DNA of 29,422 nt from a virus, in the IMG/VR virus record IMGVR_UViG_3300010885_005404, positions 1 through 29,422 of that record, one strand, 5' to 3'. Made by a program: the position numbers and the translations under genes. Of the stretch, positions 14,965 through 29,422 are shown piece after piece. How positions within the stretch are numbered: position 1 is the first letter of the stretch; the number at the start of each line of letters is the position of its first letter. The notes under the pieces were generated by a model, which was not told the DNA's origin, ran no database searches, and was given only the letters and a program-made list of their open reading frames with translations.

Positions 14965-17775
14965 ATGGCATCAATAATTAGAATTAAGCGATCACCAAGC
15001 GCTGGTAATCCATCAACATTAGGAGCTGGCGAGATAGCGTATTCTGCCTTAGCTGGTACGCAATCAAATGGTGGTGATCGCTTATATATTGGTTTTGGAA
15101 CAGAAACTGCCGGTGATGCAGCCAACCATTATGTGATTGGCGGTAAATACTTTACTGATATGTTAGATCATGTCACTGGTACACTGACAGCAAGTTCTGC
15201 AATACTAGTTGACTCAAATAGTAAAGTCGATCAACTTAAAACTACGAACTTAAATATTGGTGGTTCTGGTGCAGCAAATACAATTGCATCTAGTGATACA
15301 AATGGTAATATTGTTTTAGATCCAAATGGCACTGGTTATGTTTCTATCGTTGGAACTAACGCGCTTGTAATTCCATCTGGAACAACTGCTCAACAATCAC
15401 CATCAACTACTGGTGCTATTCGCTTTAATAGTGATAATATTGCGTTTGAAGGGTATAACGGAAGCGCTTGGACATCACTAGGTGGTGTTCGTTCAGTTGA
15501 TGGCCTTACATATATTCGTGCTGAGACTTCCTCTGGTGCTTCAAACGATGAATTAGAATTCTTTGCAGCTGCTGCAGATAATACAACTTCAACAAAATAT
15601 CTTGGTTTAAACAGAACTCGTTTAGCAGTTCTTCCAACAACCACTTCAACTAGCATAACTACCGGTGCTCTTACTGTTGCAGGTGGTGCTGGTATTGCAG
15701 AAAACTTATGGGTTGGTGGTACTTCAAATATTGCCGGTGCAACAACTCTTCAGTCTGCATTAACTTATGGTGGCGTAACTCTAAGTAATGCTGTTACTGG
15801 TACGGGTAATATGGTATTAAGTGCCTCTCCAACATTTACCGGAACTGTTATTGCTCCAAGTGCAACTGGTATTTCCGTTGGCACCCCAACTCTTGGCACA
15901 CTAACCGGTGCGGCAACATTCACTTCAGCAACAAGTGTCACAGACACGATTGGTACTTTGAATCAGATTTTAAGTAAACTCGTTCCTACTCAACCATCAA
16001 ATTTCCCAACCGCTTCGTTGACGATTTCTGGTGTAACGAGCTATCGCATTGCAGTAGCTCAAGGATCCCAAGTACTTAATGGCAACTCTGGATTGCAGGT
16101 TGCCGCTGGTTCTACAGTCTCTGCGCTAAGAGGAACTACATTTAGTACTAACACTTTATCTACTCAAGGTCCGGGAGATAATGGTACTATTACTGTTTTA
16201 CGAAATACATCTACAACTGCAAGCCATGTATTAACTGTTGGTAATACTACAGCAACCGTTGTTACCGCAACTGCTTCTGCCACTACGAATACCAGTGCAG
16301 TTATTACTCTTACTCCTGTTACTGGTGTTATTCAAGCAGGACACAAGTTCTTGGCTTCTGGTACTGGCTTCGGTGGTTTGGCTTCTGGTTCTTACTACTA
16401 TGTTCAGTCTATTACTGGGAATCAAGCCACAATAAAATTATACGACAATACTAATGGTGGTTCAATTGGTGCTAACTTTAGCGCTTCTTCTACTGCTACT
16501 GGTACTCTAACCTTTACTGCGCAAGGTGATGCTGGTACAACAACTACAAGTAATACTTCTTTAGTTATTGCCAACAACCTTGCGTCTCCAGTTGGTACTC
16601 CAGGATTCTGGGAAACTATCGATATCTCTGCAAGTGGTACTAGTGTTCCAGCTGGTTGGAACACTGTTCAAATTAATCACAGTGGTGCGGGTAATACTAA
16701 CACTGCTTCATGGTATTATGATTCTAGTGCTCCAGGAACTCCAACTGTCACTCCAGTTTCTATTACTGCACCAGCATCACCAAACTATAGATATAGTAGT
16801 GGCGTTGCTCACTTTGATGGCGCTGCAGCGAACAGCTGGACGCTATCTGCAACGGCTAATCGTTTAAGCGGAGACATGTATCCAACTTCGGATAACTTTG
16901 CTACTGGTAGTGCTGGTGGTGCGTTTAATGCTCCTGCTACAGTAACATATGCTGGTGCTAGTGTTTCAACTCCACTAGCAGCAAACTTATTTGTTGCTTC
17001 TGGTAGTGCAACTATTCCTACAACTGCTTCAATTATCACTGGTTTCGGACAAAGTTCGACTGGTCCAACATTAAGCGTAGCAAACAGTTATGCGACTGGA
17101 TCTTCAGCCTTCACTACAGCGCTGGCTGGAATCGTTCTTTATAAATCAACGACGACTGGTTCAACTACAGTATTAGACGAAAACAGCATCTTCTTTAATG
17201 CTTTAGTTGGTGGTGCATCAACTCCTGCTGCATACCGTGTTCCAAACCCTGGATCTACTGACACTCCTGTATTTACGGCTGGTCAAACTGCGTTTAATAG
17301 TCAGTCAGGAACAGTACAAACCTATGACGCTAAAATCGTAGGTGGCACGTTAAGACATGATGTAACAAATTACTCTACTGGTTATTACCCAGCTGGTCCT
17401 AATTTCTCAACTCACAATGCAAATCAATATTTTACTTTCGTGTTTATCAGAACTGCGGTAGGTAAGTTTGGTATCGTATATACTGCGCCTTCAGGAATTG
17501 CAGGTATGTGGGTTGCAATGCCAGGAACCGGTGGAACAAGTGGAACTACTTCATCATTAAACAAATGGTTATCACTAGGAATTGATAGTTCATTAGCCGA
17601 TGGTGCTGCTTTTGGTGGAAATATTAACTTAGGTGCTACTACACAACAAACGGTGAATGCTTCTTTTGGTACATTGAGTTCTACTAATGCAACTAATAAT
17701 GAAATTTGGGTCAGAATCAAGTTAACTGCGAACCAAAGTATAACGCAGCTTTACTTAAGAGATTCAACAGTCTAA
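14965..17775 (+). CDS. Long tail fibre / receptor-binding structural protein, 936 aa
   Basis: ATG at 14965 follows GGAG (14952-14955). The N-terminus (IIRIKRSPSAGNPSTLGAGE, IAYSAL, DRLYIGFG) is a conserved fibre head in aquatic T4-like phages and probably the attachment end. It is followed by LDPNGTGYVSIVG, TGAIRFNSDN, and a TTGALTVAGGAGIAENLWVGG node at about residues 231-251. A module at about 420-517 carries FLASGTGFGGLASGSYYYVQ and TIKLYDNTNGG, known from cyanophage fibres. The C-terminal about 190 residues (TYDAKIVGGTLRHDVTNYST, QYFTFVFIRT, GMWVAMPG, EIWVRIKLTANQSITQLYL) resemble a conserved terminal domain of T4-like marine fibres and are the likely receptor-facing part. No enzymatic motif is visible. 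Confidence 0.8.
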   Translation: MASIIRIKRSPSAGNPSTLGAGEIAYSALAGTQSNGGDRLYIGFGTETAGDAANHYVIGGKYFTDMLDHVTGTLTASSAILVDSNSKVDQLKTTNLNIGGSGAANTIASSDTNGNIVLDPNGTGYVSIVGTNALVIPSGTTAQQSPSTTGAIRFNSDNIAFEGYNGSAWTSLGGVRSVDGLTYIRAETSSGASNDELEFFAAAADNTTSTKYLGLNRTRLAVLPTTTSTSITTGALTVAGGAGIAENLWVGGTSNIAGATTLQSALTYGGVTLSNAVTGTGNMVLSASPTFTGTVIAPSATGISVGTPTLGTLTGAATFTSATSVTDTIGTLNQILSKLVPTQPSNFPTASLTISGVTSYRIAVAQGSQVLNGNSGLQVAAGSTVSALRGTTFSTNTLSTQGPGDNGTITVLRNTSTTASHVLTVGNTTATVVTATASATTNTSAVITLTPVTGVIQAGHKFLASGTGFGGLASGSYYYVQSITGNQATIKLYDNTNGGSIGANFSASSTATGTLTFTAQGDAGTTTTSNTSLVIANNLASPVGTPGFWETIDISASGTSVPAGWNTVQINHSGAGNTNTASWYYDSSAPGTPTVTPVSITAPASPNYRYSSGVAHFDGAAANSWTLSATANRLSGDMYPTSDNFATGSAGGAFNAPATVTYAGASVSTPLAANLFVASGSATIPTTASIITGFGQSSTGPTLSVANSYATGSSAFTTALAGIVLYKSTTTGSTTVLDENSIFFNALVGGASTPAAYRVPNPGSTDTPVFTAGQTAFNSQSGTVQTYDAKIVGGTLRHDVTNYSTGYYPAGPNFSTHNANQYFTFVFIRTAVGKFGIVYTAPSGIAGMWVAMPGTGGTSGTTSSLNKWLSLGIDSSLADGAAFGGNINLGATTQQTVNASFGTLSSTNATNNEIWVRIKLTANQSITQLYLRDSTV

Positions 17776-20700: not shown

Positions 20701-21092
20701 TGGTTAACGCCGCAAGAAGTATTAAACTTGCGGGTAATATTGATATTGCAGGTAACTTTAGTACAGCAGGCGCCTTTGCCACTACACTAACTGCTACTGG
20801 AGCAACTACATTAACACTACCAACGACTGGCACACTAGCTACTCTAGCAGGAAGCGAATCGCTAAGTAATAAGACGATTACATTATCTAGTTTCAGTGGT
20901 ACAACAGTTGCTGCATCTGGTAACGTAACATTTACTTCTACAACCGATGCATCAGCATTGGGTACTGCTCCAGTAGTTCTATCGGGTGGTTTATCAGTAG
21001 CAAAGACTATATACGTTGGAACAAATATTACAGGTGCAGGAGCAGCAACATCTACACTTGATGGATTTGCTATTGATGGTGGCACGTATTAA
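17796..21092 (+). CDS. Very long tail fibre protein, 1098 aa, internally repetitive
   Basis: ATG at 17796 follows AGGAA. Residues 1-180 form a conserved N-terminal domain known from pelagic myovirus structural proteins (MAISDPTKIDLLYKKLFG, KTWTQAGLIP, WKTGLTDWIPPEF, EWYFDYQAGTLHFLGG), probably the virion-attachment end. Then come two 96-residue repeats starting near 18735 and 19023 (TPTLGVASATSIN, TLTFTGTD.SS). A helix-type linker (ADPTQAQDAATKAYVD) precedes a module at about 609-743 (VGNRVLVKDQ, NGVYTVTTIG, VEEGATNQDNGYV) shared with the fibre at 8689. Three shaft repeats of PTTGTLATLAGSEALTNKT type follow from about 20320, 20505 and 20815. The end has VVLSGGLSVAKTIYVG and stops at DGGTY without an S74 chaperone or obvious tip domain, so the tip may be supplied by another gene. 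Confidence 0.82.
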   Translation: MAISDPTKIDLLYKKLFGVAKTDTSALKSASNEATASPFINRGDKTWTQAGLIPTTAAAVTGVVQAYTTTARIQTTADTTTTVIGSVYPTWKTGLTDWIPPEFDTANLTNTYRVQVYYGAAGVSNPASTGGTQIFADGSGGTGEWYFDYQAGTLHFLGGTIPTGMTGSSVIYIYGYRYIGTAGFAGSTLPVNNLRLGYTTTATAAGTTTLTAASTQNQFFTGSTTQTIVLPVASTMVIGDQYFIENNSTGNLTVNSSGGNLVVTVLPGTSVDVLCILASGTSAASWDAKYTGFATATGTGSVVLSTSPTLVTPTLGVASATSINGLTINASTGTLALANSKTLTVSNTLTFTGTDASSIAFGAGGTVTYTSNKLSAFSATTSAELAGVISDETGSGLLVFATSPTLTTPTLGVASATSINKVTITAPASGSTLTIADGKTLTASNTLTFTGTDSSSVAFGAGGTVLYNGGALGTPSSATLTNATGLPVATGISGLGTNIATFLATPSSANLASALTDEAGSGTVVFSTSPTLTTPTIGAATATSITGSTGNLSITAASGNNSISLVPTGTGTVDVNSKRITSVADPTQAQDAATKAYVDSLSNGLDVKQSVRAATTIALTAAYDNGTAGVGATLTNSGTQAAFALDGINLSVGNRVLVKDQAAALQNGVYTVTTIGTASVNWVLTRATDFDNSPGVEVGPGVFFFVEEGATNQDNGYVINTDSAITIGTSAINFSQFSGAGQIIAGDGLTKSGNTINAVGTANRISVAADAIDISTAYVGQATITTLGTIGTGTWNGSLIGSTYGGTGVNNGSNTLTLAGNVSYAGSFTQTFTATANTSVTLPTTGTLATLAGSEALTNKTVNGLTITSTTGTLTLVNGSTLATAGAFSTTLTATGTTTVTLPTTGTLATLTGSETFTNKTLTSPTINGGAASGLTTLAIRDTSAAFDVTIAATSSTVLTAGRTLTLDMVNAARSIKLAGNIDIAGNFSTAGAFATTLTATGATTLTLPTTGTLATLAGSESLSNKTITLSSFSGTTVAASGNVTFTSTTDASALGTAPVVLSGGLSVAKTIYVGTNITGAGAATSTLDGFAIDGGTY
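18735..19054 (+). repeat. In-frame 288-nt direct repeat units with 32-bp identical core
   Basis: A 32-bp sequence is identical at 18735-18766 and 19023-19054 (offset 288 nt, 96 codons). The surrounding coding sequence is similar but diverged, including the FTGTD.SS.AFGAGGTV phrase at the end of each unit. This is a tandem shaft duplication inside the 1098-aa fibre. Confidence 0.85.
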
Positions 21093-21107
21093 TATATAGT
21101 ATATGAT

Positions 21108-21125
21108 GGAGGATTTTTATCCTCC
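21108..21125 (+). terminator. Hairpin GGAGGAT-TTTT-ATCCTCC, weak terminator or attenuator arm
   Basis: A perfect 7-bp stem (21108-21114 with 21119-21125) and a TTTT loop, 16 nt after the stop of the 1098-aa fibre. The T-run that would make it a standard intrinsic terminator is not adjacent: TAAAATTATTCC comes before TTTTT (21138-21142). Its right arm is shared with the next hairpin, so the two cannot form together. Confidence 0.4.
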
Positions 21126-21147
21126 TAAAATTATTCCTTTTTAGGAG
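21122..21147 (+). promoter_or_regulatory. Hairpin that would sequester the ribosome binding site of the fibre at 21153
   Basis: CTCCTAAAA (21122-21130) is perfectly complementary to TTTTAGGAG (21139-21147), giving a 9-bp stem with an 8-nt loop. The right arm contains the AGGAG ribosome site (21143-21147) that lies 5 nt before the ATG at 21153. Formation of the upstream GGAGGAT hairpin would free it. A 13-codon frame (21103-21144) whose TAG stop overlaps this site crosses the element, though it has no clear ribosome site of its own. Confidence 0.5.
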
Positions 21148-21152
21148 CATGT

Positions 21153-22832
21153 ATGTCAAATAAAGTCTTGCTGAAGAAGTCTTCAGTAGCAGCTAAGGTC
21201 CCTCTTACGACCGATCTTGATTATGGCGAGTTAGCAATCAACTATGCTGACGAAAAGCTATACTTCAAAAATTCCTTAAATCAAGTTAAGTCATTTACTA
21301 CAGCCGGAGCTGGAGGAAGCGCTGCGCTTGACTTTCAAACATACACTGCTTCTGCAAGTCAAACAACATTTTCAGTATCCTACACTGCTCCATTCGTAAA
21401 CGTATACGTCAATGGCGTTAGATTATCTAGTGCAGACTATACTGCAACTAGTGGTAGTAATGTGATATTATCTATTGCATGTTCCGCTGGCGATATAGTC
21501 AACTTAGTTGGATTCACAAGTCTAACAATTGGTTATGGTCTTCCATCTTTAACTGGAAATTCTGGAAAGTATCTAACGACTGATGGAAGCACAGTATCTT
21601 GGGGTACTGTCGTTGCAGGCGGTGGTACTACTACAAATGCACTAACTATTGGTACAGGACTTTCTGGTACATCCTTTAATGGATCTTCAGCTGTAACAAT
21701 TGCTATTGATTCAACAGTTGCTACATTAACTGGTGCACAAACTCTTACAAATAAGACTTTAACATTACCTACTATCGGTGGTACTGGTGCTACATTTAAT
21801 GGTTCCACTTCTGGAACTACTGTACTTAAAGCAACTGCTACAGCAGGAACTACTACCATTACAATGCCAGCCACAACTGGCACAATGGCTCTTACTAGTG
21901 ATATTCCTACTGTTAATGCAGGTACACTTGGTGCTTCTGCAGCGACTGCTGGTTTAACAAATACTGCAATTGCCCTTAACTTTAGTGCTGCATGGAATGC
22001 TAACTCAGCATCCAATGTAACAATCAATCCAGTTGTTGGTCCAGCTATTACTAATCTAGCTACATTCATGACAACAGCAACTGCTGGTTTCATTAAACGC
22101 TCAGCTCAAGATACTTACGTAATTGATACTAATACATACTTAACTGCCAACCAGTCTATTTCATTGACTGGAGATATTACCGGTTCTGGTACTACATCTA
22201 TTGCTACAACTCTAGCTACTGTTAATAGTAACGTAGGAACATTTAATAACATAACAATTAATGCTAAAGGTTTAGCTACTGCAGGAAGTAACGTAGCGTA
22301 TCTAACATCAGTTATTCCAGCAAACTTTGCATCACAAACTGCTAATACTGTATTAGCTGCTCCAAGTGGAGCAGCTGGCACACCAACATTTAGAGCACTT
22401 GTCGCTCTTGATATTCCTACACTTAACCAGAACACTACAGGATCTGCAGGTAGTGTTACCAATACATTAACTATTGGTACAGGACTTTCTGGTACATCTT
22501 TTAATGGATCAGCTGCAGTTACTGTTGCAATTGATTCAACTGTTGCCACACTAACTGGTTCTCAAACACTAACCAACAAAACTTTAACATCACCAACAAT
22601 TAATAGTGGTGCAGTATCTGGTACTTTTACTGGTGCACCAACTTTCTCAGATACAACAGCTTCTACTTCAAGCACTACTGGCGCAGTAAAAATTGGTGGT
22701 GGTTTAGGTGTGGCTGGTAACATTTATGTTGGCTCAGCAAGTAAAGTAGGTTTCGTAAACGCAAGTAATGTAAGCGTAGTATATCAGGTATATAATGCCA
22801 CCGCTGGTGGTTTGGATACGGTGTTTGCATAA
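21153..22832 (+). CDS. Tail fibre protein, 559 aa
   Basis: It starts at ATG 21153 behind AGGAG. The N-terminus (VLLKKSSVAAKVPLTTDLDY, then GELAINYADEKLYFKN) is a very common head of aquatic phage fibres, probably the attachment segment. Residues about 60-130 form a beta module (TASASQTTFSVSYTAPFVNV, YVNGVRLSSADYT, GDIVNLVGF) like that in many T4-like fibres. The shaft contains GNSGKYLTTDGSTVSWGTV and two copies of a block with LTIGTGLSGTSFNGS, IDSTVATLTG and LTNKTL. Near the end, STTGAVKIGGGLGVAGNIYVG is the recurring TGAL-type node. The stop (TAA) shares its last base with the next ATG, so a LamG-bearing protein is translated right after. No chaperone domain is seen. Confidence 0.82.
   Translation: MSNKVLLKKSSVAAKVPLTTDLDYGELAINYADEKLYFKNSLNQVKSFTTAGAGGSAALDFQTYTASASQTTFSVSYTAPFVNVYVNGVRLSSADYTATSGSNVILSIACSAGDIVNLVGFTSLTIGYGLPSLTGNSGKYLTTDGSTVSWGTVVAGGGTTTNALTIGTGLSGTSFNGSSAVTIAIDSTVATLTGAQTLTNKTLTLPTIGGTGATFNGSTSGTTVLKATATAGTTTITMPATTGTMALTSDIPTVNAGTLGASAATAGLTNTAIALNFSAAWNANSASNVTINPVVGPAITNLATFMTTATAGFIKRSAQDTYVIDTNTYLTANQSISLTGDITGSGTTSIATTLATVNSNVGTFNNITINAKGLATAGSNVAYLTSVIPANFASQTANTVLAAPSGAAGTPTFRALVALDIPTLNQNTTGSAGSVTNTLTIGTGLSGTSFNGSAAVTVAIDSTVATLTGSQTLTNKTLTSPTINSGAVSGTFTGAPTFSDTTASTSSTTGAVKIGGGLGVAGNIYVGSASKVGFVNASNVSVVYQVYNATAGGLDTVFA
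21643..22589 (+). repeat. Direct 122-bp repeat pair within the 559-aa fibre gene
   Basis: The blocks 21643-21764 and 22468-22589 (offset exactly 825 nt, 275 codons) encode nearly the same peptide, from LTIGTGLSGTSFNGS to LTNKTLT. They differ mainly at synonymous positions. They duplicate a fibre-shaft unit. Confidence 0.85.
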
Positions 22833-28643: not shown

Positions 28644-28973
28644 ATGCAACTATTTGCTAAAGTAGAAAATGGAATTGTCACCAATGTGATTGTAGCGTCG
28701 GAAGAGGTTATTAATTCTGGTGCGTTTGGTACTGGATGGATCGAAACTTGGACTGATACTATCAATAATCCAAGAAAAAACTATGCAGGTGTTGGATACA
28801 CTTATGATGAAACTCTAAATGCATTTATACCTCCACAACTATTCCCGAGTTGGATTTTAAATAGCGATTGTCAGTGGACTGCTCCAGTTCCCTTTCCAAC
28901 AAATGCTTCTGTTTATGATTACACATGGGACGAGTCCACTATTTCGTGGAAGATATTATCGCCTTTATTATAA
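28644..28973 (+). CDS. Small conserved structural protein, 109 aa (FAxVxNGxVxxVIVA family)
   Basis: ATG at 28644 follows AAAGG. The start MQLFAKVENGIVTNVIVASE, the central RKNYAGVGYTYDETLNAFIP and the ending PFPTNASVYDYTWDES form a pattern that is very common in T4-like marine phages, always as a short protein near fibre genes. Tryptophan and tyrosine are frequent (WIETW, SWIL, QWTAPVPF). Its biochemical role has not been assigned as far as I recall; a tail-fibre attachment or assembly role is inferred from position. Its stop codon lies inside the late promoter of the next gene. Confidence 0.8.
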   Translation: MQLFAKVENGIVTNVIVASEEVINSGAFGTGWIETWTDTINNPRKNYAGVGYTYDETLNAFIPPQLFPSWILNSDCQWTAPVPFPTNASVYDYTWDESTISWKILSPLL

Positions 28974-28976
28974 ATA
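28969..28976 (+). promoter_or_regulatory. T4-type late promoter, exact TATAAATA
   Basis: An exact match to the T4 late promoter consensus TATAAATA at 28969-28976, overlapping the stop of the 109-aa gene and ending 17 nt before the ATG at 28994. AAGGA (28983-28987) is the ribosome site. In T4 such elements are read by polymerase carrying gp55 and gp33. Confidence 0.62.
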
Positions 28977-28993
28977 CATAATAAGGATCAACA

Positions 28994-29422
28994 ATGACCA
29001 TTAACAGAAATCTATCACTACTAACACCAAACGTAAGTGCGTCTGGTGCTGTAAAAAGAATAGAAATTACAAATCTAAATAATATTTCAAATTTATTTAA
29101 TTTTACAACCTGCGTATTTCCATTAAAATTAGATCAAACAAATATAACAAGCAGTGACTTTACTGATTCAAAGGATCTTGAAGTTGTTATTAATGGTCTT
29201 AGATTAACCCCTTATGTAAATCAAGTAACGTATCCATGGTTAACTCCATATGATTCACATAGAGGATTTAGAGCAGTGGCAACATCTACAGATGCGAATG
29301 TTATTATTTACAACGCACCAGCAATAGGAGATTCTGCTTCGGTGACGATTATAAATAACTCGTCTAGTGTACAAACAAGAAAATACCCATATTCAGCTAC
29401 TACAATAGCATTAGGAGATTAA
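28994..29422 (+). CDS. Small virion structural protein, 142 aa
   Basis: ATG at 28994 with AAGGA upstream; the TAA stop falls on the last bases of the window. The protein opens NRNLSLLTPNVSASGAVKRI and has a core of beta strands: LEVVINGLRLTPYVNQVTYP, WLTPYDSHRGFRAV, VIIYNAPAIGDSASVTI. The V-I-N-G-L-R-L-x-P and W-x-T-P-Y-D phrases occur in small virion proteins of cyanophage-like T4 phages. The 'INGLRLTP ... GDSASV' layout is also similar to the beta module in the fibre at 21153 (YVNGVRLSS ... GDIVNLVGF). No membrane segment or catalytic motif is seen. The protein probably ends complete here. Confidence 0.74.
   Translation: MTINRNLSLLTPNVSASGAVKRIEITNLNNISNLFNFTTCVFPLKLDQTNITSSDFTDSKDLEVVINGLRLTPYVNQVTYPWLTPYDSHRGFRAVATSTDANVIIYNAPAIGDSASVTIINNSSSVQTRKYPYSATTIALGD

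Follow-up and report, generated by a model that had tools for sequence, protein, structure and literature searches.

In a 29.4-kb viral record with T4-like baseplate and tail genes on the plus strand (IMG/VR record IMGVR_UViG_3300010885_005404, of which the whole stretch of 29,422 nucleotides (nt) was analysed and is called the window here), the interval in front of a fibre/adhesin gene holds two small hairpins that covary among relatives, that end in loops of one form, U-NNNU-A, and that follow a late-promoter-like motif. It is suggested, with a probability of about one half, that this interval is a post-transcriptional operator or leader of a late fibre mRNA. Somewhat more tentatively, it may represent an undescribed class of phage cis-regulatory RNA, in which twin U-NNNU-A hairpins after a late promoter, in phages of aquatic bacteria, cyanobacteria among them, would set the amount of fibre or adhesin through a putative RNA-binding protein. 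An earlier note had read the interval as a translational attenuator with two mutually exclusive stems and a translated 13-codon frame; a structured leader in front of the fibre gene is real, its most plausible role being post-transcriptional control, but the attenuator layout found no support.

Folding of the leader

In the predicted ensemble of the whole leader, pair probabilities are 0.88-0.95 for hairpin 1 and 0.81-0.93 for hairpin 2, the smaller of the two (Table 1). Hairpin 1 has 7 base pairs (bp) around a UUUU loop and an energy of -9.9 kcal/mol on its own, which was equalled by 6 of 200 shuffled sequences. In hairpin 2, which adjoins the start codon, UCCU pairs with the AGGA of the Shine-Dalgarno sequence and a U-G pair extends the stem to 21134-21147. 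The leader as a whole folds moderately better than shuffled sequences (z -1.96), and the significance of the two hairpins comes from the comparative evidence given below, not from energy. In the minimum-energy fold of the window leader, part of the start codon also lies in an extra closing helix, 21099-21105/21148-21154. A kissing interaction between the two loops was considered and rejected, since UUUU cannot pair with UUUU.

Both stems of the earlier note exist and, sharing bases 21122-21125, are mutually exclusive. The second of them, stem 2 (CTCCTAAAA/TTTTAGGAG), is a real complementarity of 9 bp with an 8-nt loop and -9.6 kcal/mol on its own, a value that none of 200 shuffles equalled. 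Nevertheless, its pair probabilities are 0.05-0.06, and it forms in 6% of the ensemble of the window leader, against 94% for hairpin 1. Nor does formation of hairpin 1 free the ribosome-binding site, as had been proposed: hairpin 2 then re-pairs the Shine-Dalgarno sequence, so that positions 21143-21146 are at most 5% unpaired. The site is thus buried, but its partner is a hairpin of 4-5 bp that is compatible with hairpin 1, not stem 2, and because of this compatibility there is no two-state switch. Furthermore, whereas relatives keep hairpin 1, they do not keep stem 2, for which 38.2% of cells are paired across 58 distinct relatives, compared with 40.7% in shuffles, at a covariation of 0.044.

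The 13-codon frame, ATGATGGAG...TTTTTAG (MMEDFYPPKIIPF), is likewise present, and its TAG (21142-21144) overlaps the AGGAG. It has no Shine-Dalgarno sequence of its own, its first ATG lies approximately at the transcription start predicted from promoter spacing, and just 7 of 64 relatives have an ATG frame that starts at or before hairpin 1, its form varying among them; the frame is judged fortuitous. An attenuator in which translation of the frame exchanges the two stems, although both stems and the frame are there in the window sequence, is therefore extremely improbable, given the lack of conservation of stem 2 and of the frame and the continued pairing of the Shine-Dalgarno sequence when hairpin 1 is formed. 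Here a mutually exclusive pair read from a single sequence misled, the neighbouring weaker hairpin being the conserved one.

Conservation of the hairpins and their loops

Relatives of the window's group (group A) were obtained by protein-guided searches of viral contigs, and 58 distinct leaders were aligned and their pairs counted. Many of the loci share a common order, consisting of a gene ending in ...DGGTY-stop, the leader, and a gene starting MxNKVLLKKSSV. Across these 58 junctions, 91.6% of the cells of hairpins 1 and 2 are paired and covariation is 0.539 compared with 0.191 after shuffling (reached in 0 of 500), counts that are inflated by the relatedness of the sequences; in controls with slid partners, pairing falls to 60% or less. 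Compensatory double changes occur at 8 of 9 aligned pairs of hairpin 1 (for example GCUGGGG/CCCCAGC, GGGGAGU/ACUCCCC and GGGUAGU/ACUACCC) and at two of the four pairs of hairpin 2. The loop of hairpin 1 has four bases, is closed by U-A and ends in U (UUUU, UCUU, UAUU, UGUU, UUCU, CUAU), and that of hairpin 2 takes the same form. A covariance model of the group scored strongly in 19 of 20 parent records, at a single place in 18 and at two places in one, and its weak extra matches elsewhere in the records were near chance. In L285 (record G009:19500-25500; L272:4500-4760) the model matches two places 4.6 kb apart, and at the second a promoter-like CTAAATAAT together with hairpin 1 is tandemly duplicated.

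Once the loop rule had emerged in the window's group, more distant relatives (groups B and C) were fetched purely by similarity to the N-terminal domain of the protein; grouping was otherwise done by eye after inspection of the sequences. Group B, from GC-rich contigs, has a hairpin beside the start codon whose inner stem is closed by U-NNNU-A (GCCU-ACAU-AGGC, GGCU-AUAU-AGCC, UGCU-AAAU-AGCA), mostly with a 6-nt 3' bulge, and whose outer stem contains the Shine-Dalgarno sequence (GUCC/GGAC, UCCC/GGGA, CUCC/GGAG, AUCC/GGAU, CCUC/GAGG); over 33 sequences, 93.3% of cells are paired and covariation is 0.483 against 0.190 after shuffling (0/500). Group C, the cyanophages including Prochlorococcus phage P-SSM2 (hairpin 1 near position 214830 of AY939844.2), has the order NATAAATA, hairpin 1 (for example AGCAGU-AUAU-ACUGCU), a few nucleotides, hairpin 2 (GGU-ACAU-ACC) and start codon. 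Its 27 non-redundant members are 95.8% paired with a covariation of 0.457 compared with 0.182 (0/500), and obey the loop rule in 26 cases for hairpin 1 (AUAU or ACAU; the exception is L488) and in all 27 for hairpin 2 (ACAU, AAAU or AUAU). In the siphovirus S-CBS2, CCGUAUAUACGG stands 26 nt and UGCUAGAUAGCA 3 nt ahead of the start codon. Four further loci (L305, L313, L324 and L357) have the twin hairpins CTCAGTATATACTGAG and TTCTACATAGAA (or TTCTATATAGAA), with a third, variable hairpin before them.

Of the 99 non-redundant gene starts of the family, 72 have a U-NNNU-A hairpin of 4 bp or more in the preceding 65 nt. In the same loci this holds for 14 of 511 control starts (2.7%), and shuffled family leaders show it in 2.3%. 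Where the loop is closed by U-A, its fourth base is U in 101 of 104 family hairpins and in 16 of 38 controls. Because the family was assembled by protein similarity and not by hairpins, this count is not circular, the sequences nonetheless remaining related. Gene-start statistics were used in place of a strict search for twin hairpins in nine genomes, the threshold of which excluded the 3-bp hairpin 2 of the cyanophages and gave unrelated pairs. P-SSM2, G001, G003 and RN05-S each have 37-63 late-promoter-like sites upstream of open reading frames, or ORFs (63 in P-SSM2), of which a single one, that of the fibre gene, precedes such a hairpin; DSL-LC03 has two such sites, the second before another gene, and in G004 the hairpin is present but no promoter-like site is linked to it. 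At the second site of DSL-LC03 (OR003938.1, ~41621) the hairpin is CATAATAGCTATTATG, upstream of an ORF starting MPLSRLENFL.

Relation to a putative late promoter

Upstream of hairpin 1, TAAATA is present in 50 of the 64 relatives in the window's group, its first T mostly 14-16 nt ahead of the stem, and in all 27 members of group C, where the gap from motif to stem is mostly 4-7 nt, about the distance between a T4 late promoter and its start site. The degenerate motif of the window, AATATATA, stands 15 nt before hairpin 1, within this modal spacing. In T4, late transcripts begin some 6 nt past TATAAATA; given this spacing and the position of the motif, the predicted 5' end of the late mRNA falls at hairpin 1 or a few nucleotides before it. 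Consensus NATAAATA occurs elsewhere in the window eight times on the plus strand and once on the minus strand (12727, 14342, 24393, 27185, 28969 and others), several of these directly before genes, and this phage probably uses promoters of the T4 late type.

Proposed role and alternative explanations

Comparison of the sequences shows two covarying hairpins, a loop rule, placement before one family of fibre genes and, in most relatives, a promoter-like motif; from these we infer that the element acts as RNA, that it controls translation initiation and that a protein reads its loops. In the proposed scheme, a T4-type late promoter, degenerate in the window, would start transcription just upstream of hairpin 1, and the mRNA would begin near this hairpin and run through hairpin 2, beside the start codon, into the fibre gene. 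Both hairpins would present the same U-NNNU-A loop as a putative binding site, or operator; an RNA-binding protein of phage or host might act there on the initiation of translation, and perhaps also on the stability, of the fibre mRNA. The Shine-Dalgarno sequence lies within hairpin 2, or is covered by it, in group B and in the window's group, and a bound protein could turn a weak hairpin into a real block; alone, the 4-5 bp of the window would be a mild one. Since hairpin 2 is weak and in group C holds no obvious Shine-Dalgarno sequence, plain sequestration does not cover all members, whereas a protein operator, or a processing or stability element, would.

Several observations weigh against this reading. 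The window has no consensus late promoter before the fibre gene. Hairpin 2 of group C overlaps no obvious Shine-Dalgarno sequence, hence sequestration is not its only role, and the Vibrio phages L244 and L246 have the same N-terminal domain with no intergenic gap and without the element, which is therefore not obligatory. Counts of G-U against A-C pairs, 9 against 4 (A2) and 9 against 8 (A4), do not separate selection at the RNA level from selection at the DNA level. Both the ligand and the direction of its effect are inferred, and the binding protein is hypothetical.

Given a predicted transcription start near the base of hairpin 1 in most of group C, and a few nucleotides before it in many members of the window's group, it is conceivable, at appreciably lower odds, that hairpin 1 protects the mRNA as a 5'-terminal stem-loop that blocks 5'-end-dependent decay, or that a ribonuclease cuts or binds the hairpins, translation not being specifically regulated. 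A simple protector has no need of a fixed loop, but both hairpins retain U-NNNU-A as their stems drift, and, where found, the hairpin follows 1-2 of the 37-63 late-promoter-like sites of a genome, so it is no general device of late mRNAs. Action at the DNA level, as an inverted repeat for protein binding or for recombination in the exchange of fibre modules, is unlikely. The element does sit at a junction flanked by fibre genes that are variable but have conserved ends, P-SSM2 (L367) and ACG-2014f (L371) have a putative endonuclease gene just upstream, and the pair counts above do not decide the matter; however, the stems differ almost completely between lineages, which leaves no common DNA site, the orientation to the gene and the relation to the promoter are fixed, and in groups A and B the Shine-Dalgarno sequence lies within hairpin 2 or is covered by it. 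The endonuclease gene adjoins a fibre gene that carries the element in P-SSM2 and possibly carries it in ACG-2014f, a possible link to fibre-module exchange.

More improbable still is that hairpin 1 is an intrinsic terminator, or the remnant of one, that limits read-through from the upstream gene. Some relatives combine a GC-rich stem with a T-rich stretch (L144, and Limnohabitans phage DC31, where UUUUUUAA comes after GGGCGG-UUUUUA-CCGCCC). The mean number of T in the 8 nt past the stem is 4.4. But the window stem is followed by TAAAATTATT, a terminator scan does not list hairpin 1, at least 7 T in 8 occur in just 2 of 64 relatives, and the T tract is generally absent in groups B and C; moreover, other intergenic hairpins of the same genomes carry other loops, those of three T4-like relatives having varied loops and often terminator-like tails. 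As a general explanation the terminator was rejected on the scan, the T counts and the loops of these other hairpins.

If the interval is an operator of the fibre mRNA, its interest lies in the fact that fibre genes determine which hosts a phage can infect and rank with the most exchanged parts of phage genomes, while the control of fibre dosage in non-model phages is largely unknown. A strict loop rule with drifting stems across lineages points to a shared regulator, which should be retrievable biochemically, and the element offers a sequence handle for fibre and adhesin genes in unannotated viral contigs.

Comparison with known systems

In Rfam 15 no family reached the gathering threshold in the window or its relatives, and none reached a lax threshold at the junction; in the literature covered (titles, abstracts and passages, subscription papers falling outside it), no description of the element was met. 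Hairpin operators or hairpins that sequester the Shine-Dalgarno sequence are described for T4 genes 43, e, soc, 49 and I-TevI (PMC3014915). The gene 43 operator of T4 and RB69, by which gp43 regulates its own synthesis, resembles the present element in being a leader hairpin of a T4-type phage, about 40 nt before the start codon, with a loop that relatives largely share and with sequence that overlaps the ribosome-binding site; it differs in its UAAC-type loop, its single hairpin and its mostly early mRNA (PMC3014915). The element described here likewise combines an upstream hairpin of conserved loop with a structure at the ribosome-binding site, but has two hairpins with U-NNNU-A loops before a late fibre gene and a putative ligand; given that protein binding is hypothetical, it is not filed under the gp43 type.

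In the leaders of T4 e, soc, 49 and I-TevI a hairpin near a late promoter sequesters the Shine-Dalgarno sequence (PMC3014915). This sequence is also held in a helix here, according to the ensemble of the window and to covariation in groups A and B. However, the promoter motif precedes hairpin 1 in most relatives, so that late transcripts should keep both hairpins and would not lose the 5' strand of the structure, the loss of which defines the gene e type, for which reason the element is not assigned to the gene e type.

The coat-protein operator of the MS2 type is a short, protein-stabilised hairpin with a constrained tetraloop near the start codon; compared with it, the present element has a different loop rule, belongs to DNA phages and has a hypothetical binding protein.

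Genomic context and other observations

Table 1. Features of the leader and its flanking genes in the window.
Feature	Position	Strand	Basis and remarks
Upstream structural/fibre-like gene, 1098 amino acids	17796..21092	+	phrog_30390, phrog_6002 virion structural protein
AATATATA, degenerate late-promoter-like motif	21091..21098	+	one mismatch to T4-type late promoter NATAAATA; putative role
13-codon frame	21103..21144	+	present, not conserved
Hairpin 1, GGAGGAU-UUUU-AUCCUCC, loop U-UUUU-A	21108..21125	+	arms 21108-21114 and 21119-21125; folding and compensatory changes in 58 distinct sequences
Stem 2, CTCCTAAAA/TTTTAGGAG	21122..21147	+	arms 21122-21130 and 21139-21147; real complementarity, not conserved, about 6% of ensemble
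Hairpin 2 (mini-hairpin), UCCU-UUUU-AGGA, loop U-UUUU-A	21135..21146	+	arms 21135-21138 and 21143-21146; folding, double changes in relatives
Shine-Dalgarno sequence AGGAG	21143..21147	+	read from sequence; mostly paired in ensemble
Fibre/adhesin gene, 559 amino acids	21153..22832	+	N-terminal domain MSNKVLLKKSSV...DYGELAINYADEKLYFK; relatives in P-SSM2 and others annotated tail fibre

The gap between the two genes of Table 1 is 60 nt, the longest among the intergenic stretches of the genes listed. The upstream gene ends in ...DGGTY-stop, and this C-terminus and the junction are kept in relatives. A nucleotide search of phage isolates gave one short match, within the coding region. The gene at 14965-17775 begins MASIIRIKRS, similar to the N-terminal domain of the gene at 21153, and has no such hairpin upstream; should the two genes share this domain, the element would not simply track it.

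Elsewhere in the window, at 28962-28986 (CCTTTATTATAAATACATAATAAGG), before an ORF at 28994, a 9-bp helix pairs the Shine-Dalgarno sequence AAGG. The late promoter TATAAATA lies in the 5' arm and loop of this helix, which is the arrangement known for T4 gene e; late mRNAs would then lack the 5' arm and would be translated.
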